Source: Owenweeksia hongkongensis DSM 17368
GTDB taxonomy: Bacteria > Bacteroidota > Bacteroidia > Flavobacteriales > Schleiferiaceae
Assembly (NCBI RefSeq): GCF_000236705.1
Contig: NC_016599.1
Span: 1,054,001 to 1,118,000 of the forward strand
Direction: 5' to 3'
DNA: 64,000 nucleotides
Shown: positions 19,408-30,900 of the stretch, one piece after another
Numbering within the stretch: the stretch's first letter is position 1
Layout of the letters: each line of letters begins with the position of its first letter
Made by a program: the position numbers and the translations under genes
Notes under the pieces: model-generated
Told to the model about the DNA's origin: nothing
The model's database searches: none
The model's input: the letters and a program-made list of their open reading frames with translations, nothing else

Positions 19408-20547
19408 ATGGAAAAAAAACTTGTCATATTAGGCTTCATTGCCATCTTAACTATTCCATTTATACTTTTCATATTTGGAATAAGGCCTGAATTTGAAAAT
19501 ACTGAAAACCGAAGACTAACCCCCAAACCACAATTTGGGTGGACTTCCAAAGAATCTAAAGGCACTTTACAAAACGCTCAAAACTTATCTGCAGAATTAG
19601 GTAAGTATTTTGAAGATTTTGACGCTTATTATAATGATCACTTTGCGTTCAAACCAATATTGTTCACAACCTACTACCAGCTACAGACTAAAGTTTTTCA
19701 TACCAACCCCATTCCTCAAAAAGTAGTTAAAGGAAATGAAGGGTGGTACTTTTTAGGGAATCTATATTCCAATGTGATAGCAGAATCAAAAGGTATTTCC
19801 AACTTTAGCCAAAAAGAACTCAGCCGCATAAAAGAAAATATGGAAAATAATGCTCGCTGGCTTAAGCAGTATAACATAGAATATTATGTAGCCGTTGCGC
19901 CAAATAAACACACTATTTATGGTCAGTTTCTTCCCATAGCACAAGGCAATTTGCAAACTAAGTTAAGCCAAGTCAAAGAGATGCTTTCCAAAACGAAAAT
20001 CAATTTTGTTGATTTATCTGAGAATTTAAAAGATCATCTTAATCAAAAATTATATGATAAAACTGGCTCTCACTGGAATGATCTTGGCGGTTATTATGGC
20101 TATACAGCCCTTATGGATAAGATAAGTACCCAATTCCCTACAGTAGAACCAATTGGCCCAAAGGACTTTACCATAGTGGACGATACAGTTAATCAAGAAG
20201 ACCTGACCAGAATGCTTGCTATAGAGACTATAGAGCATCAACCTTTCTTGAAAATGAATAACCCTTGTGCCATACAAATTGACAACAAGCTGCCTATCCC
20301 TGCAAAGCACAAAGGTCCGGCAGAAAAGTATGAGCATCGATATTCTTGTCCTGATAAGTCATTTAAGGTTCTTGTTTTTAGAGATTCATTTGCAAAAGCC
20401 CTAATACAACCAATTGCAGAAACCTTTGGGGAATCTTTATTTATTCGATTTCATGATTTTGACAAAGATTTAATACTAGAAGAAAAGCCAGACCTTGTGA
20501 TTTATGAAATTGTAGAAAGAGATATTGACGTTCTTTTGCGTCAATAA
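19408..20547 (+). CDS. AlgJ/AlgX-like SGNH acetyltransferase
   Basis: A 379-aa protein with one N-terminal membrane segment and a periplasmic SGNH-like domain. Markers of the AlgJ/AlgX group are ENRRLTPKP near the start, a YNDHFAFK segment, GNEGWYFLG, the Asp/His motif YDKTGSHWND (His222) and FRDSF with probable nucleophile Ser327. In alginate and similar systems these proteins take acetyl from the MBOAT partner and place it on the polymer. Its start abuts the MBOAT stop with no gap, which supports a paired function. Confidence 0.85.
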   Translation: MEKKLVILGFIAILTIPFILFIFGIRPEFENTENRRLTPKPQFGWTSKESKGTLQNAQNLSAELGKYFEDFDAYYNDHFAFKPILFTTYYQLQTKVFHTNPIPQKVVKGNEGWYFLGNLYSNVIAESKGISNFSQKELSRIKENMENNARWLKQYNIEYYVAVAPNKHTIYGQFLPIAQGNLQTKLSQVKEMLSKTKINFVDLSENLKDHLNQKLYDKTGSHWNDLGGYYGYTALMDKISTQFPTVEPIGPKDFTIVDDTVNQEDLTRMLAIETIEHQPFLKMNNPCAIQIDNKLPIPAKHKGPAEKYEHRYSCPDKSFKVLVFRDSFAKALIQPIAETFGESLFIRFHDFDKDLILEEKPDLVIYEIVERDIDVLLRQ

Positions 20548-20575
20548 ACCACCCAATGATAGTTTAAAGAGTCAC

Positions 20576-21358
20576 ATGAAAAAATCCCATTTGAACTACA
20601 TAATGCACATTCCCAAAACTGCAGGCATGAGCTTGCAGTATTTGGCACGAAGGCAACATAAAGCAATTGGTGCTCTAGAGTTGATTTATACTCTTGAAAA
20701 GCAGCAAAAGGGATTTGAAAACCGCCCAGAACTTCAAACCGTAATGGGACATTTCAGATATGGTATTCACAGGTTTTCAAATAGGCCAGCATATTACTTC
20801 ACCTATTTGCGAAACCCTATTGACCATGTGATTTCGCATTATCAATACACCAAAGATTTTCCGGAGAAGTTTGAGTTTTTACCAAAAGAATCACAAAGCA
20901 TTATTGACTTTGCAAAAGGCCCTTATGGTAATAATTTACAATCCCGCTTTATTTCAGGTATCACCAAGCACGACACAGATTTACAGGTAATTTTAGAAAC
21001 TGCAAAAGCCAACCTTAACCAATTTGAAGTAGTAGGAATTACCGAAGAGTTTGACCTTTCTTTACTAATGATGGCCAAAGCTCTAAACTGGAAAACGCTT
21101 TACTACACCCGCATGAATGATGGCAAGACCAAGAAAAAGGAACCTTATCCCAGCCCCGAAGTCATTCAGGAACTTGAAGAAATTTTGAAATACGACATCG
21201 AGCTTTATAAGCTCGGCCTTCAGATCTTTGAAAAACAAAGGCAAGCCAATCTTGATTTAGTGAAAAAGCTTCCACAGTTTCAGCGAATGAATAGCTATTT
21301 CCAGCAGCTCAACCCTACTTATATTAAGTTTAAAAAAGTGTTTGGGTTGGTTAAGTAG
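20576..21358 (+). CDS. Sulfotransferase family protein
   Basis: A 260-aa protein with the PAPS-binding signatures of membrane-type carbohydrate sulfotransferases: HIPKTAGMSLQYL near the N-terminus (5'-phosphosulfate loop) and FTYLRNPIDHVISHYQY (3'-phosphate site). Such enzymes move sulfate from PAPS to sugar hydroxyls. The ATG at 20576 is chosen because it places the PAPS loop about 12 residues from the start; an upstream GTG/ATG extension would overlap the previous gene. It follows the MBOAT and AlgJ-like genes, so sulfation of the same polymer is likely. The 3' end overlaps the convergent symporter gene by 8 bases. Confidence 0.8.
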   Translation: MKKSHLNYIMHIPKTAGMSLQYLARRQHKAIGALELIYTLEKQQKGFENRPELQTVMGHFRYGIHRFSNRPAYYFTYLRNPIDHVISHYQYTKDFPEKFEFLPKESQSIIDFAKGPYGNNLQSRFISGITKHDTDLQVILETAKANLNQFEVVGITEEFDLSLLMMAKALNWKTLYYTRMNDGKTKKKEPYPSPEVIQELEEILKYDIELYKLGLQIFEKQRQANLDLVKKLPQFQRMNSYFQQLNPTYIKFKKVFGLVK

Positions 21359-23057
21359 ATTTCTTAAAACCGGCAGCCAAGGTAAAAAGCAAACTAAGCA
21401 CCACTACCGCCACACAACCAATCACATTGTACCATAGGTATTCCACTTCATATTTTACAAAAAATGGAATCTCGTACACTCTACCAAAGTGAATGAGTAA
21501 AACAAAAGCTTCGGCAATAAGTGCACTATAAAACACCGCATTTCCTTTTACTTTTTTGATAAAGAAGGCTACCACAAAAATGCCTAGAATAGTCCCATAA
21601 AATAGCGAACCGAGCACATTCACCATTTCAATAAGGTTGTCAAACAAGGTTGCAGTTAGGGCAAATCCTATGGCTAGACAGCCCCACAGTACCGTCAGTA
21701 TTTTTGACATCCACACTTGGTGCTTTTCAGAAGCTTCTCTATTAAAAAGCCTACGGTAAAAATCTACGGAAGTAGTGGTTGCCAAGGCATTTAATTCACC
21801 AGCCGTAGAAGACATTGCCGCTGAGAAAATAAGGGCGATTATAAGTCCCACCACGCCTATTGGGAGGTAATCCATCACGAAAGTGAGGAACACATAATTG
21901 GTATCTTTTACTTTAAAATCAGGATTAGCTTCTAGCAATAAACTCTTCACTTCATCACGGATTTCTCCATCACGAGCCACCACTTCTCTAAACTGCTCTT
22001 TGGCCCGTGGGTCAGCATCGTTTTCCACAAAATTGTCACGCACCGTTTGAAGCTCTACAAAATGAGCATCGTACTTTGTTTCCAGGTCTTCCAGTTTCTC
22101 TTTGTACTCACTGCCACGTATGTTTTCAATGGCTGTTTTGTTAAAGAAAACTGGCGGCTGCACGTATAGATAAAACACAAAAACCAGCACTCCGGTGAAG
22201 AGGATAAAAAACTGCATCGGGATTTTGATGATCGCGTTGAACATCAAGCCCAATCGGCTTTCCTTAATATTTTTACCGGTAAGGTAACGCTGCACCTGGC
22301 TTTGGTCGGTGCCAAAATAGGAAAGCGCCAAAAACAAACCTCCCGTGAGGCCGCTCCATACCGTGTATCGTTCGTTTAGGTTAAAGTCAAAATCCAAAAC
22401 TTCTAGCCTACCTACCGAGCCTGCAAGGTTCATGGCGGAGCCCATTTCTACAAAACCTCCAATTTTATAAATCAAAATCCCAAAGGCAACACCCATCCCC
22501 AAAAGGATAACACCCATTTGCCATTTCTGAGTGAGGCTCACCGCTTTGGTTCCACCGCTTACGGTGTAGATGATCACCAATACTCCAACAAAAACGTTTG
22601 TGAAATTTAGGTTCCAACCTAAAAGCGTGGAGAGAATAATTGCTGGCGCAAAAATGGTGAGACCAGCCGCTAAGCCGCGCTGCACCAAGAAAAGAAAGGC
22701 CGCCAACAAGCGTGTTTTTATATCAAATCGGTTTTCTAAATATTCATAAGCTGTGTAAACCTTGAGCCTGTAATAGATAGGAATAATGAAGGCCGAAATG
22801 ATAATCAGGGCCAGTGGTAGACCAAAGTAAAATTGAACAAAGCGAAGGCCTTTTTCGTACCCAAGCCCAGGCGCACTAAGAAAAGTAATGGCACTAGCCT
22901 GTGTGGCCATCACCGAAAGCCCGATGGTAAACCAGCGCATCTCATTGCCTCCACGCAGGTAATCATCCACCGTTTGATTTTGGCGGGTTTTCCATACACC
23001 AAATCCCACTATGGCAAGCAGGGTACCAAAAAGCACTACCCAATCTAAAATACTCAT
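21351..23057 (-). CDS. Sodium:solute symporter (SSS family)
   Basis: A 568-aa membrane transporter with about 13-14 hydrophobic segments. SSS features include YLRGGNEMRWFTIGLSVMAT, SAPGLGYEKG, VQRGLAAGLTIF, SYFGTDQSQVQRYL and FSAAMSSTAGELNALATT. A hydrophilic insert (about residues 310-375, rich in Glu/Asp/Arg) sits between membrane segments. The ATG overlaps the stop of the 37-aa ORF (ATGA), so it is probably translated from one transcript with it and the PIG-L gene. That pairing suggests import of the product of an extracytoplasmic hydrolase; the substrate is unknown. Confidence 0.9.
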   Translation of the reverse strand: MSILDWVVLFGTLLAIVGFGVWKTRQNQTVDDYLRGGNEMRWFTIGLSVMATQASAITFLSAPGLGYEKGLRFVQFYFGLPLALIIISAFIIPIYYRLKVYTAYEYLENRFDIKTRLLAAFLFLVQRGLAAGLTIFAPAIILSTLLGWNLNFTNVFVGVLVIIYTVSGGTKAVSLTQKWQMGVILLGMGVAFGILIYKIGGFVEMGSAMNLAGSVGRLEVLDFDFNLNERYTVWSGLTGGLFLALSYFGTDQSQVQRYLTGKNIKESRLGLMFNAIIKIPMQFFILFTGVLVFVFYLYVQPPVFFNKTAIENIRGSEYKEKLEDLETKYDAHFVELQTVRDNFVENDADPRAKEQFREVVARDGEIRDEVKSLLLEANPDFKVKDTNYVFLTFVMDYLPIGVVGLIIALIFSAAMSSTAGELNALATTTSVDFYRRLFNREASEKHQVWMSKILTVLWGCLAIGFALTATLFDNLIEMVNVLGSLFYGTILGIFVVAFFIKKVKGNAVFYSALIAEAFVLLIHFGRVYEIPFFVKYEVEYLWYNVIGCVAVVVLSLLFTLAAGFKKST

Positions 23058-23167
23058 GCGCTATAATGTGAGGTGATGAAATAAAAGACAATGAGCTGTA
23101 ATACCAGAAAAATTAGTACAAAGGCATAGAGTTGTTTCCAACTTTTAAAGATTTTATTGCTGCTCAT
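23054..23167 (-). CDS. 37-aa single-span membrane protein between PIG-L and symporter genes
   Basis: An ATG at 23167 inside the last codons of the PIG-L gene opens a 37-codon frame. It overlaps that gene by 14 bases and overlaps the symporter ATG by 4 bases (ATGA). The peptide starts MSSNKIFKSWKQ, has one hydrophobic helix (about residues 14-31, YAFVLIFLVLQLIVFYFI) and ends TSHYSA. Positive residues precede the helix, so the N-terminus should stay in the cytosol. The double overlap and the helix make it a credible gene, perhaps a small transporter subunit. No homologue is known to me. Confidence 0.65.
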   Translation of the reverse strand: MSSNKIFKSWKQLYAFVLIFLVLQLIVFYFITSHYSA

Positions 23168-25616
23168 TATCGGCTTTATTTTGGTAACTCAATAAGTTGG
23201 CCAAAAGTCGATATGCTCCGGGAACTCCTGCCGGCAACTCTCTAAAAAAGGAAATTCCCGTGTACATAAATGCACCTTTACCGTAATTACCAATCAGCAA
23301 GCCACCTTCACGCATTGGCTCACCCTTATCATGCCAGCCAATTGGTGTTTCGTACTTATCATCCCATTTATTGGAAAAATACAAACCCCGTTCTTGTACC
23401 CAGTTTTCAAAGTCCTTGTCCGTAAGCTTGTTTGGAGAGTTCAGCACTGGGTTTTTAGCTCTTGTAAACTCCACCTTGGCATCTTCTTCAGTAACTCTAT
23501 CTCTGCTAATTTCGAATGGGTATGGGCCGATATCATCACTCAGTAAGTCGCGAGAAGAAGTGTTGTACTGCACAATGTAATTTCCTCCATTCTGCACATA
23601 ATTCATCAGTTTGTCTTTAGCCAAAGGCAACCACTCTTGCGTGTTATAAGCTCTAATTCCTGCAACAATACTTTTGTATTTTGAAAGATCATTCATCATG
23701 ATTTCATCTTTCGTCAGCGTTTCCACTTTATAACCCATTAACTCAATAGCTTCAGCTACTTTGTCTCCAGCTCCGGGAATGTATCCAATAAGATCTCCAT
23801 CCTTTTTTAGGTCAACTTTTATAAGATTTACCTGAGCTGGTTCAAATACCACGCGATCATCTATGTGGCTGTATTTTATTTCGGTAAGGTTAAGTGCCTC
23901 GCCTTCTCCATTTATCTGTATTCTCAGTGCGTCATTAGCGCTTTTATCTGTGGGTGAAACAGTAAGTACCACATTCTGAAAGTCTCCCCCTTCAGTATCC
24001 AACTTTATTTCTGATGGCTCCACATTCCATGATTGAGCAATTATTTGAAGACTCTTCACTTCTTTACCAAAAGTGCGAACCCCTAATACCAGTTGTTGCG
24101 GCTCATCATTCACAAAAATCATGTTCTCCAAATTTGGCGTTACCACAATTTGCGGCACTACAAACACAGGTTCAATAATTTCACCTTCCACTCTATCTGA
24201 ATGTTTGTTTAAAATTGGTAAGGTCAAATCATAAGAATGGCCATCAATATCTACCGTAAGTCTTGCCTGAGGCAAAGGCTTGTATTCGGCCTTACCTCTC
24301 AACTTTTGATCATTTATTGTAAATAAATTTTGCCCGGGATTATTCAGCCAGTAAGGCTGAGAGATCTCCTCTGCAACTTTTACATTAATCTCCTTGCTCC
24401 AATTTTCATTTGCTGATAAAGCTTCACTCAAATCCGTTTTTTGACCTTCATAGTCCAGCGATTTCAACCTTACTTCTTGAGCTGAACGATTGATTGCTTC
24501 CAAGGTCCAACTAACATCCTCTCCAGGTGTTAGGTATAAATCATCACTCAATAATTCCGCATGCCACCCCAGTGAGGCAACAATAATTTCATTGAGCTGC
24601 TTTTTGAAGTATTCCTTTTGGGAGGCATCGTTTATTTTGTCCGCTTCAGCTAAAAGCTCAAACAAAGCTGGAAGACTTGCGCTAGGGTTGGTTACATCAT
24701 AGTTTTCTAAAATACTTGCCAACTTTTTATCTCCAGTTTTAAAATCATAGCGCTCCCAGGTTTGGTTGATACCACTAAAAATATCTCCATCCGCCTTATC
24801 TCCTTCTAAGTATTGAAGATATTCTATAGTACTTCCGCGTGCCACCGAAACCCCAAATCCTTGACTCTTGTGCTGAGTTCGGCTATAAGAAGCTATTTCA
24901 TTATAAGAAGCGCCAAGCAACGCATTATAACCTCCCACATCTACAGTTACATAATTGTCATCAGTAGCTGCAATTTTATCCAGATCTTTATTCCACCAAT
25001 TGGAGGCATTCCAATAGATACGCTTTGGCTGCCAAGGCTCTACAAATTCTAATTGTTCAGGGAAGCTTTTAGGATCACCTGCAATTTTAAATGCTTCTAT
25101 TCCAAGCATTGCAGATGCGGTGTGATGTCCATGTCCTCCTCTGCTATCTGGTGGAAAGCGGGTGATAATCACATCCGGACGATAGGTGCGAATAACCCAC
25201 ACCACGTCTGAAAGTATTTCTTCTTCACCCCATTTCTCCATGGTTTCGTCAGCGGTTTTACTATAGCCAAAATCTATTGCTCTACTGAAAAATTGTTCGC
25301 CACCATCCGTTTTTCGAGCTTGCATTAGCTCTTGTGAGCGAAGAACTCCCAATTTATTTCCCAGTTCGGTACCAATTAAATTCTGGCCACCATCTCCGCG
25401 AGTAAGCGATAGGTAAGCTGTACGAACGCCTTTTCCATTGTCCAGCCACGATATCATTCTGGTATTTTCATCATCAGGATGAGCTGCCAGGTAAAGCACT
25501 CGTGTAGGGTTTTGCAGCTTTTTTAGCTCATGCAAAATTTCACCTCCAGAAAGATCTTTTTGCCCAAAGGCAAAACCAACACTAATAAGGAATATAAACA
25601 GGGAAAGCTTTTTCAT
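23154..25616 (-). CDS. PIG-L/LmbE family deacetylase, secreted, with large C-terminal part
   Basis: An 820-aa exported protein. A signal peptide (about residues 1-18, ending FAFGQ) precedes a PIG-L/LmbE domain with the zinc motif AHPDDENT and the second ligand region GHGHHTASAM. Members hydrolyse N-acetyl groups from amino sugars or related conjugates. The remaining 550 residues hold beta-sandwich-like sequence and a C-terminal segment with SIVAGIRAYNTQEWL and NGGNYIVQYNTSS, resembling a glutamine-amidotransferase/ThuA-like fold. It is the first gene of the unit with the 37-aa ORF and the symporter. Confidence 0.85.
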   Translation of the reverse strand: MKKLSLFIFLISVGFAFGQKDLSGGEILHELKKLQNPTRVLYLAAHPDDENTRMISWLDNGKGVRTAYLSLTRGDGGQNLIGTELGNKLGVLRSQELMQARKTDGGEQFFSRAIDFGYSKTADETMEKWGEEEILSDVVWVIRTYRPDVIITRFPPDSRGGHGHHTASAMLGIEAFKIAGDPKSFPEQLEFVEPWQPKRIYWNASNWWNKDLDKIAATDDNYVTVDVGGYNALLGASYNEIASYSRTQHKSQGFGVSVARGSTIEYLQYLEGDKADGDIFSGINQTWERYDFKTGDKKLASILENYDVTNPSASLPALFELLAEADKINDASQKEYFKKQLNEIIVASLGWHAELLSDDLYLTPGEDVSWTLEAINRSAQEVRLKSLDYEGQKTDLSEALSANENWSKEINVKVAEEISQPYWLNNPGQNLFTINDQKLRGKAEYKPLPQARLTVDIDGHSYDLTLPILNKHSDRVEGEIIEPVFVVPQIVVTPNLENMIFVNDEPQQLVLGVRTFGKEVKSLQIIAQSWNVEPSEIKLDTEGGDFQNVVLTVSPTDKSANDALRIQINGEGEALNLTEIKYSHIDDRVVFEPAQVNLIKVDLKKDGDLIGYIPGAGDKVAEAIELMGYKVETLTKDEIMMNDLSKYKSIVAGIRAYNTQEWLPLAKDKLMNYVQNGGNYIVQYNTSSRDLLSDDIGPYPFEISRDRVTEEDAKVEFTRAKNPVLNSPNKLTDKDFENWVQERGLYFSNKWDDKYETPIGWHDKGEPMREGGLLIGNYGKGAFMYTGISFFRELPAGVPGAYRLLANLLSYQNKADNEQQ

Positions 25617-25769: not shown

Positions 25770-28700
25770 ATGAAAAGATTGCTACTTGGCCTTTCACTAG
25801 GCATAACTTTATTTTGTTCTAATTCGCAGGCTCAAAGCACCGCACCAGCGCTTTACCTCAAAAATCACACAATACATATTCAGTCAGGAACGGATGATTT
25901 ACATTTCACCCCTGACGAAGTTGTGGATGGTAAAATTTACCGTATTGTTCAGGAAAGCAATCAGAAGTACTTTAAGCTTAAGATGAAAAACGAAAGTTTT
26001 GAAGTGCTTGAATATTTACCACATAATGCTTTCCTGGTAAGTATCAATGCTTCTTCAATAAATAGTTTTGAAGCTCTTTTAACTGAAAAAAAATCTCGGG
26101 TAGCCAAGTGGCAAGCTGAGTGGAAACTTTCTCCCCGCCTATTTAAAAGTGATATCCCCGATTGGGCTTGGATTGATAATAAGCAAATCAAAGTTTGGAT
26201 TCAGACTTACGCAGATATTGATCCACAAATGGCAAGTCAGCTTATTCAAAATGAAGGACTAGAAATTATTGACACCAAGCCGGAGCTTAACTTTTTTGCG
26301 ATAAGCATGAAGCCGGAAAATGCTGCACAAATTGCGGCTTTTCCTTTTGTGAGTTATCTACAAGAAATGGAGGACCCGGGACAAATTGAAAACTCTACGG
26401 CCAGGACTGATCACCGAGTAAATACTTTACAAGCATCATACAATGGAGCTCCAAATTATGATGGAACAGGTGTAACTGTAGGGCACGGTGATGATGGCGC
26501 ACTTGGCGACCATATAGACTACACAGGCCGCTTAACCCAAAACTCACCTCCCTCGACTGGTGATCATGGTGATCACGTAGCGGGAACTATTTTTGGAGCA
26601 GGAAACCTTGATCCGAAAGGACGAGGAATGGCTCCAGGAGCTGAAATTTATTATCAGGATTATCCTGATAACCTAAATAATGTAGATCAGGATTTTAATA
26701 CACATGGTGTTCGTATTACTTCATCATCCTATAGTAATGGTTGCAATGCGGGCTATACTGGCTTTACGCGCCAAATGGATTTAGATATGGATGATCACAA
26801 TACCGTCCTTCATGTCTTTTCTGCTGGAAATAGTGGAACTCAGGACTGTGGTTATGGAGCTGGCTCAGTTTGGGGAAATATTACTGGAGGGCATAAAATT
26901 GCCAAGAATGTAGTTACTGTAGCCAACCTTACTCGCACAGATGTTTTAGCGACCAGTAGCAGTCGTGGCCCTTCTGAAGATGGAAGAATAAAACCGGATA
27001 TTTCGGCCGTTGGAACTTCGGTTTACAGCACCACTGACTTACCTGCTCCAAATTCCTATACCAGCAAAACAGGAACCTCAATGTCTTGCCCTGGTGTATC
27101 AGGCACTTTAGCAACCCTCCATGAAGCTTACCGAGATAAAGTAGGTGGTGATCCTCATTCTAGCTTGCTAAAAGGTATAGCTCTAAATACGGCTGATGAT
27201 TTAGGTAATCCTGGCCCCGATTTTAAATTTGGTTTTGGCCGAATAAACGCACGCAGAGCTTATAATGTCATAGATGCTCAAACATTTATAAGCGATAGTA
27301 GTACTGGAACTACCAAGTCATTTACTATTAATATGCCATCTACGGGAACCGTAAAAGAAGTAAAGATTATGCTTATTTGGCCAGATCCTGCTGCCTCACT
27401 TACTGCGGCTAAGGTGCTGGTTAATGATTTGGACTTAAGCGCAAGCCAAGGAAGTAATAATTACCAACCATTGGTTTTGAATCCTAATCCAAATGCCACT
27501 ACGCTAAATGCCAATGCTGTAGAAGCACGTGATAGCCTGAATAATATTGAGCAGATTGTGATTTCTAATCCTAGTTCAGGAAACATTAGTGTAGATGTAG
27601 ATGCTTTCAACTTGCCATCTAATGGTCAAAAATTCTTTATTGTATATGAATTTGTAATGGATGAAGTAGAGCTTACCTACCCTCTTGGTGGCGAAGGTTT
27701 TGTTCCATTTGAAACTGAGTTTATTCGTTGGGATGCTTCAGAAGGAACCGGAAGTTTTACAGTAGAATATTCTACTGATAATGGAAACACATGGTCATTA
27801 ATAAACAACGTAAGCGCTAATGGTTCCTATTTCTTTTGGGCGGTACCAAATATCGTGACCAACGAAGCCAAGGTGAGAGTAACTCGCGGAACTCAAGTTT
27901 CTGAATCGCCAGGTACATTCAGTATTATAGGCACTCCTGCAAGCATAAACTTCCCTAAGCAATGTCCTGACTCTGCTACCATAGCATGGACTGCTGTACC
28001 AAACGCTACGGGATACATTGTATATGAGCTTGGAAGTAAATACATGGATAGCATTGGTTACACCACAACCAACTCTCTCACATTTGGCAACAACAACCCA
28101 AGTGTAAGCAATTGGTATAGTGTAGCCGCAGTACTTGACAGTGTACCAGGACGAAGAGCCTATGCTGTGGAAAAACCAACAGGCCTTATTAATTGTAATC
28201 TAAACTTTGATATTGAAGTAAGCCAAATGCTTTCTCCACCCTCAGGGGTTACTACAGATTGCTTTGATTATGACAATACTCCAATAAAGGTAAGGTTAGA
28301 AAATACTGGTGCCAGTGAGGTTTACAATTTTGATGTGAGCTATAAAATTAACAACAGCGCTGTGGTTACTGATAATATAACAGATACCATACCCGTTGGT
28401 GGAAGTCTTGATTATTCTTTTACAAGTAATGCCGGAATCGTAGGTGGATCGAACTATTACATTAGTATTTGGGTAAATTTAGCTGCCGATCAAAACAAAT
28501 TCAATGACAGCATTAGTGAAGTTGTGATTCTGCTTCCGGGAACAACCATTACAGCCCCTTATGTTCAGGATTTTGAATCATTTGGCCCCTGTGCTACTAC
28601 TTCCAATTGTTCTTTAGGAGAATGTAATTTAAGTGCTGGGTGGGAAAATGCCAAAAATATTGATGTTGATGATATAGATTGGCGAGTGGATAATGGAGGC

Positions 28701-29378
28701 ACACCATCTTCGGGTACTGGCCCCTCTATAGATGCTAATCCTGGAACCAGCACCGGAAACTACCTTTACCTAGAAGCTTCAGGAAGTTGCGATAGCAATG
28801 AAGCCCTATTACTTTCCCCTTGTATCGATCTTACATCAGCAAATATTCAGAGCGCCATGGCATCTTTTGAGTATCACATGAGTGGAGCTCAAATGGGTAA
28901 ACTTGATGTGGATATAATTTCGCAGGATGAACTTATTCTAAATGTAATTCCTACCTTCTCGGGTGATCAAGGTGTGAACTGGAATGTAGCTAACATAGAT
29001 CTTGCTCCATACCTAGGCGAAAAAGTAGTGATTCGCTTACGCGGAAAAACGGGTGATGGATTTAGATCTGACCTTGCAATTGATAATTTCTCTGTACAAG
29101 CCTCTGGAATTGGCTTAGAAGAAAGTCCACTTGGAAACCTTGCCCTTTATCCAAATCCAACAACAGGCGTATTCACTGTTTCGCTTGAAGAGAACCAAAA
29201 TGGTAAAGTAAGCTTCACTGTAAATTCTATTACAGGGAAGCAAGTTTTCACGAACAGCGCAGACGCAAACAATCAGAAAGAGTTTACACTAAACTTAAGC
29301 CACTTGCCAAAAGGAGCTTACATAGTTACTGTGACTACTGATGCAGGTTCGCAAAACCTAAGTATGATTAAGCAATAG
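25770..29378 (+). CDS. Secreted S8 subtilisin-like protease with T9SS type A tail
   Basis: A 1202-aa exported protease. After a signal peptide (to about residue 21) and a propeptide-like region comes a subtilase domain with probable catalytic Asp241 (GHGDDGAL), His269 (GDHGDHVAG) and Ser437 (TGTSMSC). Downstream are a P/CUB-like beta domain, a fibronectin-like region, a CARDB-like region and a MAM-like module (about 920-1110; YHMSGAQMGKLDVDI). The last 80 residues are a T9SS type A sorting domain (LYPNPTTGVF, ending SQNLSMIKQ), so it is exported across the outer membrane. Single-gene unit with its own terminator. Confidence 0.92.
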   Translation: MKRLLLGLSLGITLFCSNSQAQSTAPALYLKNHTIHIQSGTDDLHFTPDEVVDGKIYRIVQESNQKYFKLKMKNESFEVLEYLPHNAFLVSINASSINSFEALLTEKKSRVAKWQAEWKLSPRLFKSDIPDWAWIDNKQIKVWIQTYADIDPQMASQLIQNEGLEIIDTKPELNFFAISMKPENAAQIAAFPFVSYLQEMEDPGQIENSTARTDHRVNTLQASYNGAPNYDGTGVTVGHGDDGALGDHIDYTGRLTQNSPPSTGDHGDHVAGTIFGAGNLDPKGRGMAPGAEIYYQDYPDNLNNVDQDFNTHGVRITSSSYSNGCNAGYTGFTRQMDLDMDDHNTVLHVFSAGNSGTQDCGYGAGSVWGNITGGHKIAKNVVTVANLTRTDVLATSSSRGPSEDGRIKPDISAVGTSVYSTTDLPAPNSYTSKTGTSMSCPGVSGTLATLHEAYRDKVGGDPHSSLLKGIALNTADDLGNPGPDFKFGFGRINARRAYNVIDAQTFISDSSTGTTKSFTINMPSTGTVKEVKIMLIWPDPAASLTAAKVLVNDLDLSASQGSNNYQPLVLNPNPNATTLNANAVEARDSLNNIEQIVISNPSSGNISVDVDAFNLPSNGQKFFIVYEFVMDEVELTYPLGGEGFVPFETEFIRWDASEGTGSFTVEYSTDNGNTWSLINNVSANGSYFFWAVPNIVTNEAKVRVTRGTQVSESPGTFSIIGTPASINFPKQCPDSATIAWTAVPNATGYIVYELGSKYMDSIGYTTTNSLTFGNNNPSVSNWYSVAAVLDSVPGRRAYAVEKPTGLINCNLNFDIEVSQMLSPPSGVTTDCFDYDNTPIKVRLENTGASEVYNFDVSYKINNSAVVTDNITDTIPVGGSLDYSFTSNAGIVGGSNYYISIWVNLAADQNKFNDSISEVVILLPGTTITAPYVQDFESFGPCATTSNCSLGECNLSAGWENAKNIDVDDIDWRVDNGGTPSSGTGPSIDANPGTSTGNYLYLEASGSCDSNEALLLSPCIDLTSANIQSAMASFEYHMSGAQMGKLDVDIISQDELILNVIPTFSGDQGVNWNVANIDLAPYLGEKVVIRLRGKTGDGFRSDLAIDNFSVQASGIGLEESPLGNLALYPNPTTGVFTVSLEENQNGKVSFTVNSITGKQVFTNSADANNQKEFTLNLSHLPKGAYIVTVTTDAGSQNLSMIKQ

Positions 29379-29438: not shown

Positions 29439-30900
29439 AAGGACTCACTTCAATTTCGGGTTGCTCTCCAGGTTTTCTTCTCAATAACCAAAGTCCTATC
29501 AAAGTAAACAGTCCATTTACCAATAGTAGCTCAAAACCAAATTTATAACCAAACCAAGCCTCTGAATTATCCTTAAGGATGTAACTCAAAATTGGAGAGA
29601 TAATCGCAATTACCGGCACCCACCTGTCTTTTACATTCCATTTAGTAAAAAGTCCAAAAGCATACATACCAAGCAATGGTCCGTAAGTGTAACCGGCAGC
29701 TACAAAAAGCTCTTTGATCACACTTTCATCTACCGTGTATTTAAAAGCCAGAATCACCAAAAGTAAAATAACGGAGAACATGATGTGCACTTGCTTTCTA
29801 ATCCTCTTTCCTGCCTTAGCCTCTTTATTTTGAATTCCTAAAATATCTACACAAAAGGAAGTGGTAAGTGCGGTAAGTGCAGAATCGGCACTACTATATG
29901 CAGCAGCAATAAGACCAAGTATAAACAGTACGCCAACCACAACTCCCAAATCTCCGCTAAGGGCCACAGCAGAGTATAGCTTATCGCCTGTTTCAGCAAT
30001 TCCATTAGCATCAGCATAGTCGTAAAGTAAAACCCCCAGAGAAAGGAAAATCAGGTTTACAAACACCAAAATGATGCTGAGCCAAAACATGTTCTTCTGC
30101 GCATCCTTCAAGCTTCGGCAGCTTAGATTTTTCTGCATCATGTCCTGATCTAGTCCTGTCATCACAATGGTGATAAACATCCCCGAGAGGAATTGCTTCC
30201 AAAAAGCATTTTCCGTTTTCCATTCATCAAAAAAGAAAATCCGTGACATATCCGAATTGCTCACGTACTCTATCAAATTGCCATCAGGAATCAAGCTTTT
30301 CTTAATGAGAACAACAGTAATAATTACCGCCACCAGCATAAAGGTGGTTTGCAAAGTGTCTGTCCAAATGATGGTTTTTATTCCGCTCCTAAACGTGTAC
30401 ACCCAGATTAACAAAATCGTTACCATCACGGTTACCCAGAAGGGAACTTCTAAAGCATCAAACACCGCATATTGCAGAACTATTGCTACCAAGTAAAGAC
30501 GAAAGGACGCCCCGATAATTCTGGAAATCAAAAAGAAAACAGAGCCTGTTTTGTAGGATGAAGGCCCAAAACGCTGGTCGAGATAGGTATAAATTGAAGT
30601 GAGCTGCAAACGATAATAAAGCGGCAAAAGCACTTTGATAATCACCGCATAACCCAGCACATAGCCCAGCACTACTTGCATGTAGCTAAACTGGCTCCCT
30701 TCTACCCAACCAGGAACGGAGATAAAAGTAACCCCGCTCAAGGAAGCCCCCACCATACCAAAAGCCACCACATACCAAGGACTTTGGCGATTACCCAAAA
30801 AGAAGGAATCATTGTCATCCTTGCGGCCTGTGAGGTAAGAAACCCCGATGAGCAAAAGAAAATAACAAGCAACCAGCGTAATGATAAAGATGGGACTCAT
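29437..30900 (-). CDS. Sodium:solute symporter (SSS family), second copy
   Basis: A 487-aa membrane transporter with about 13 hydrophobic segments. It shows the SSS phrases FFLGNRQSPWYVVAFGMVGASLSGVTF, seen in short pieces such as SPWYVVAFGM, and AAAYSSADSALTALTTSF. It lacks the long hydrophilic insert of the copy at 21351-23057 and is clearly a different subfamily. It stands alone, convergent with the subtilase gene and divergent from recR, so its substrate cannot be guessed from neighbours. Confidence 0.9.
   Translation of the reverse strand: MSPIFIITLVACYFLLLIGVSYLTGRKDDNDSFFLGNRQSPWYVVAFGMVGASLSGVTFISVPGWVEGSQFSYMQVVLGYVLGYAVIIKVLLPLYYRLQLTSIYTYLDQRFGPSSYKTGSVFFLISRIIGASFRLYLVAIVLQYAVFDALEVPFWVTVMVTILLIWVYTFRSGIKTIIWTDTLQTTFMLVAVIITVVLIKKSLIPDGNLIEYVSNSDMSRIFFFDEWKTENAFWKQFLSGMFITIVMTGLDQDMMQKNLSCRSLKDAQKNMFWLSIILVFVNLIFLSLGVLLYDYADANGIAETGDKLYSAVALSGDLGVVVGVLFILGLIAAAYSSADSALTALTTSFCVDILGIQNKEAKAGKRIRKQVHIMFSVILLLVILAFKYTVDESVIKELFVAAGYTYGPLLGMYAFGLFTKWNVKDRWVPVIAIISPILSYILKDNSEAWFGYKFGFELLLVNGLFTLIGLWLLRRKPGEQPEIEVSP

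Follow-up and report, generated by a model that had tools for sequence, protein, structure and literature searches.

A short reading frame ahead of one sodium:solute symporter subfamily is conserved across Bacteroidota and may encode an accessory membrane subunit

Between a PIG-L family deacetylase gene and a sodium:solute symporter (SSS) gene in the window (the whole stretch of 64,000 nucleotides from Owenweeksia hongkongensis DSM 17368 that was analyzed) lies a 37-codon open reading frame (ORF). Across the phylum, this ORF is conserved, is under purifying selection in its own frame only, is tied to the symporter and is independent of PIG-L. We are almost certain that it is translated, and that its product is a small membrane protein under selection, found phylum-wide and linked to a single SSS subfamily, and we think it probable that the protein is a physical accessory subunit of this symporter; that it binds and stabilizes its partner is what we infer. 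In the mechanism we propose, the ORF would yield an inner-membrane protein of 37 residues, oriented with the N-terminus in the cytoplasm and the C-terminus in the periplasm and made by translational coupling just ahead of the symporter. As an accessory subunit of one SSS subfamily only, its helix would pack against the outer face of the 13-helix transporter and might aid folding, insertion or continued activity, by analogy with MAP17 and SGLT2. A widespread symporter subfamily appears to possess a second subunit, one missing from Pfam and NCBIfam, and a symporter expressed alone could therefore fail or mislead.

The Small ORF and Its Neighbors

The small ORF occupies positions 23054..23167 on the minus strand (ATG at 23167, TGA at 23056-23054) and encodes the single-span protein MSSNKIFKSWKQLYAFVLIFLVLQLIVFYFITSHYSA. 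Its start lies within the last codons of the first gene of the unit, which encodes the PIG-L family deacetylase (23154..25616, minus strand; 820 aa; Pfam PIG-L, 1.5e-15), so that 14 nt are shared (23154..23167, minus strand). Its stop shares the 4 nt of an ATGA motif (23054..23057, minus strand) with the start of the gene for the proposed partner, the SSS protein, also called SSF (21351..23057, minus strand; 568 aa). Three lysines (K5, K8 and K11) stand ahead of the hydrophobic stretch, after which the window protein has neither K nor R, and hydropathy gives one helix. The initial annotation had described a hidden 37-aa ORF overlapping both neighbors and encoding a lone hydrophobic helix behind a positively charged stretch; its coordinates, both overlaps and the form of the product proved correct. 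The ORF is present as one copy in its own genome, where three further profile matches are weak (E 0.3-0.6).

The symporter scores above the cut-off for both Pfam SSF (E 3.2e-45; 155.2 bits against a cut-off of 22.8) and NCBIfam TIGR00813 (E 4.1e-73; 246.8 bits against 184), and its relatives in the PDB are SMCT1, SiaT, NIS and SGLT2. It is one of four SSS genes in the genome, and the other three are without such a small ORF in front. A second, different SSS gene lies within the window itself at 29641-30804 (minus strand), and no small ORF precedes it. An insert of roughly 80 residues (window 21903-22130, minus strand) separates the two conserved halves of the symporter; it is missing from the SiaT and SMVT alignments, appears as two long helices in the model of a relative and is probably periplasmic, judging by helix count. 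At its 3' end the SSS gene shares 8 nt (21351-21358) with a convergent ORF (20525-21358, plus strand) that is sulfotransferase-like by a match just under the Pfam cut-off. At the other end of the unit, the N-terminus of the PIG-L protein resembles a signal peptide by eye, and the divergent gene at 25770-29378 (plus strand) encodes a secreted subtilase with a MAM domain and a type IX sorting tail; similar secreted starts adjoin PIG-L in several relatives, also by eye.

The window's small protein has no confident match in Pfam or NCBIfam (best E 0.11 and 0.51), and the 66 members compared with both collections gave scattered weak matches only (best E 0.0014 and 0.004). Nothing on the small ORF was found in the published literature, where coverage of subscription journals was mostly lacking, and the available portions of PMC8140960 and PMC7746861 contain nothing relevant to it.

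Conservation and Selection in the Reading Frame

Among 60 genomes, the window's own counted, 41 contain PIG-L, and 30 PIG-L loci were read, including that of the window. Wherever SSS follows PIG-L (26 of 26 loci, the window and 25 of 25 relatives), a one-helix ORF of 30-44 aa lies between the two and in many cases overlaps one neighbor or both, and the 14-nt overlap with the PIG-L end recurs in the relatives L004, L005, L006, L008 and L013. The initial annotation had proposed a search for the same ORF between PIG-L and SSS genes in other Bacteroidota, and a similar ORF is present at all 25 of these relatives' loci. PIG-L, small ORF and SSS are also consecutive in G008. One genome (G349) carries two such units (L067, L068), and one of its SSS copies has several internal stops.

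The ratio of nonsynonymous to synonymous change (pN/pS) was calculated for 55 disjoint pairs of relatives whose SSS genes differ by 3-25% in nucleotides; five aligned codons at the start and two at the end were cut to exclude the overlaps, and four duplicate loci were removed. The ratio is 0.249 in the frame of the small ORF (bootstrap 0.208-0.294; 0.244 in an earlier run with 56 pairs). Shifting the frame gives 1.11 and 1.55, and SSS has a ratio of 0.075 in the same 55 pairs. For the small ORF, pN is lower than pS in 55 of the 55 pairs. By parsimony on a tree of 166 SSS, positions W10 and Y14 changed only 7 and 2 times, respectively. Because the ratio is low in one frame alone, we conclude that the small protein is under selection. 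Equal synonymous and nonsynonymous rates, or stops in the frame, would each have refuted the initial annotation; pN is lower in every pair, and no class of relatives breaks the frame with stops. Frame-specific selection and the tracking of SSS described below lend sequence-level support to the initial annotation's reading of a translated product that is perhaps a subunit of the symporter.

These results bear on a rival explanation, in which the small ORF is a translational leader that merely links translation of SSS to that of the gene before it, the peptide being irrelevant. Such a leader would suit the tight ATGA/TAATG-like spacing at many loci (-4 between small ORF and SSS at 46 of 110 phylum-sample loci, and at 47 of 76 genome_contigs loci from the best 80 listed), but purifying selection confined to one frame in every pair, together with the conserved W and Y of the small protein, argues against it; the displaced copies described below add to this. 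The case also shows that families of about 37 codons are recoverable by combining adjacency with frame-specific selection.

Distribution in Bacteroidota and Beyond

The phylum sample comprised 395 Bacteroidota genomes, the window's own included. A first profile, built from 28 members and applied at E<=0.01, matched in 117 of these, and in 113 after nine chance matches were dropped. The latter (L136, L140, L145, L148, L151, L153, L155, L156 and L158) lie inside other ORFs, are broken or score poorly, and have no adjoining SSS.

An orthologous SSS, called at E<=1e-90, is present in 143 of the 395 genomes, leaving 252 without one at that cut-off. A one-helix ORF stands before SSS in 134 of the 143 (110 by profile and 24 by eye, the 24 diverged ORFs having been accepted for their position, length, hydropathy and resemblance to relatives and not on E-value, and a few, such as L190 and L197, being weak). 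In five others (G155, G094, G110, G082 and G330) the small ORF lies away from SSS. The remaining four (G217, G199, G168 and G191) gave no small ORF with a wider profile (best E=0.03), and in these the PIG-L gene leads into SSS with little or no gap. Only one of the 252 genomes without SSS has the small ORF (G083), and there it precedes a partial, seemingly frameshifted SSS. This comparison is uneven, as the first profile was all that was applied to genomes without SSS, whereas SSS genomes were also inspected by eye. Counted with that profile only, chance matches excluded, the small ORF is found in 112 of 143 SSS genomes vs. 1 of 252 without SSS.

A second sample, the best 80 SSS loci among the matches listed in genome_contigs, overlaps the first; the contigs of L281 and L027, for example, are apparently one and the same. 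The small ORF lies directly before SSS in 76 of these best 80 listed loci and about 200 nt upstream in L247; the sequence of L285 begins at SSS, and L259 and L288 have no small ORF at SSS. Outside Bacteroidota, the pair occurs in two named Myxococcus strains (L270, L283), as well as in metagenome-assembled genomes (MAGs) labeled Myxococcales (L302), Chthoniobacterales (L292) and Opitutales (L242), labels that may be wrong. A search for SSS on plasmids gave no match at E<=1e-60.

Association With the Symporter and With PIG-L

Among the 113 profile-hit loci, SSS comes next in 110, 82 have a PIG-L end no more than 700 nt upstream, and 25 have no PIG-L in the stretch examined. At the f38 locus tested (L113), a WbqC-like gene stands upstream. 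With PIG-L the less constant neighbor, it follows that the small ORF travels with SSS more than with PIG-L.

The alternative that the small protein is a membrane anchor or subunit of the PIG-L enzyme, and not of SSS, would account for those 82 loci, and also for G023 and G031, where the small ORF stays beside PIG-L and SSS is on another contig (loci L028, L029, L322 and L323; in L028 and L029 the ORF is present, with no SSS in a downstream stretch of 1.1 kb and under 0.2 kb, respectively). It is at odds with the 25 loci without PIG-L in the stretch examined and with the WbqC-like gene before the ORF at L113, as well as with three further cases: L030 and L032 have PIG-L with no SSS downstream and no small ORF beside it, G009 has pieces of PIG-L with neither SSS nor small ORF found, and in L194-L196 PIG-L abuts SSS and the small ORF is absent. 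We consider a PIG-L partner quite improbable. The arrangement in G023 and G031 is the reverse of the f38 pattern, where PIG-L is absent.

The two genes can also lie apart. In G155, G094, G110 and G082 the small ORF is about 15 kb from SSS, and in G155 and G094 it is still behind a WbqC-like gene; in G330 the distance is 108 kb, and in G023 and G031, as noted, the two are on different contigs. A pure leader ORF would not be expected to persist at a distance from SSS, and we give that explanation hardly any credence. Within genus g102, SSS has gone from the small ORF in four genomes, where the ORF (L113:3424-3544 and L143:3348-3465, both on the minus strand in coordinates of the reverse-complemented locus, and L157) sits behind a WbqC-like gene and faces a DASS-like transporter gene; these labels were assigned by eye, for DASS throughout and for WbqC outside L113.

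The symporter, in turn, can do without the small ORF, since the latter is missing in the four sampled genomes named above, in L259 and L288 and, by profile, in G004 and G016. The last two are the genomes of L030 and L032; they have SSS elsewhere, and neither the profile at E<=0.05 nor inspection by eye of the stretch before SSS revealed a small ORF.

Topology, Structural Models and Covariation

The small proteins range in length from 24 to 59 residues, with a median of 38, in a set of 231 sequences in which some genomes are present twice and some starts were guessed. Within this set, K and R are richer before the hydrophobic core than after it in 220 of 231, and because most lie before the core, the positive-inside rule leads us to expect an N-in, C-out topology.

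AlphaFold2 was run on a read-through fusion from L281 with an alignment of 40 rows, 10 of them fusions. The SSS part of the model has a mean pLDDT of 85.1 and a pTM of 0.83; the small part is one helix (residues 5-33), at a low confidence (block pLDDT only 48-69). Neither the fusion model nor covariation places the small helix on the symporter, and a fused chain would bias docking anyway. No natural fusions of small ORF and SSS were noticed in the loci read by eye. Corrected mutual information was computed for 166 pairs (effective number 104 at 80% and 29.5 at 62%) and gave a top score of 0.357, vs. maxima of 0.300-0.319 in four shuffles. The best covarying pairs, 24-480 and 24-484, follow clades; by tree-based co-change, 531 and 966 of 15411 pairs outscore them, respectively, and the best pairs by that measure are unclustered.

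That the helix is not confidently docked would suit an independent regulator or protease adaptor, similar to MgtR/MgtS, that controls the turnover of SSS, or of something else in its pathway, and is no stable subunit, and small proteins steering transporter turnover are known, as the available part of PMC10710835 indicates. A fixed partner fits better with the constant place of the ORF before SSS and its near-absence where SSS is lacking, and we regard such a regulator as unlikely.

In our reading, the SSS model of a relative has 13 membrane helices. Among the best 50 PDB entries listed from 998 chains, it aligns best with NIS, SMCT1 and SiaT, and its alignment with SGLT2 ends near residue 549. 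Seventy-seven SSS proteins were examined, of which 71 were testable for a hydrophobic stretch behind the last helix; 67 of these 71 tails, including that of the window SSS, have no further hydrophobic stretch, and the other four (L303, L311, L312 and L320) have one, which is short in two of them. Given where the alignment with SGLT2 ends and the 67 blank tails, most SSS of this subfamily seem to lack TM13. One could suppose that the symporter is of the SGLT type but split, with the small protein as its fourteenth helix, now detached, and a standing part of the scaffold: SGLT types that bear TM13 keep an in-to-out helix within the chain, and here a separate gene would supply the equivalent. We rate this version as rather unlikely, and compare the small protein below as a candidate accessory subunit.

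Comparison With Known Small Partners of Transporters

Secondary transporters can have a short membrane protein encoded next to them, as with the MetS-type small subunits of NSS transporters, and SSS proteins themselves have short membrane partners in DUF4212, DUF485/YjcH and DUF997/YhdT; some of these or of the MetS type have two helices. At E<=0.05, the 66 members together match 16 Pfam families, and MetS, DUF4212, DUF485 and DUF997 are not among them.

The NCBIfam model NF045580, named "symporter small accessory protein," has 33 positions and a cut-off of 35 bits. It resembles the small ORF in that it is very small, has one hydrophobic stretch and is tied by its NCBI name to symporters. Its members presumably adjoin an SSS symporter gene, a trait shared by the window's small ORF and by the ORFs in 134 of 143 SSS genomes; its charge pattern, as read from putative member sequences, looks reversed relative to that of the small ORF. 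None of the 66 members matches NF045580 at E<=0.05, nor does the window protein, and the model found no matches in 198 Bacteroidota genomes. When the small-ORF profile was aligned against two putative NF045580 member sequences, hhalign gave a probability of 0.8%. The same two sequences score 72.5 and 80 bits on the NF045580 model, which therefore works. The two seem to be alike in kind: the small protein may work as NF045580 proteins do, but it does not belong to that family.

MAP17 appears to be the best-studied case of one helix assisting an SSS protein. As described in the available text of PMC10803289, MAP17 (PDZK1IP1) is a single-helix auxiliary subunit of human SGLT2, an SSS-family transporter, and binds TM13 of SGLT2; its role is still debated there, with help in folding and localization favored over direct control of activity (PMC10803289). 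The small protein is like MAP17 in having a single transmembrane helix (by hydropathy, and at low confidence in the L281 model) and differs in its partner, as SGLT2 has TM13 and most members of this SSS subfamily seem to be without it. Single-span partners of SSS proteins have a precedent in MAP17 with SGLT2, as far as the available text of PMC10803289 goes, and, by name, in NF045580. The parallel points to a bacterial system in which the debated role of a single helix could be examined by clean gene removal.
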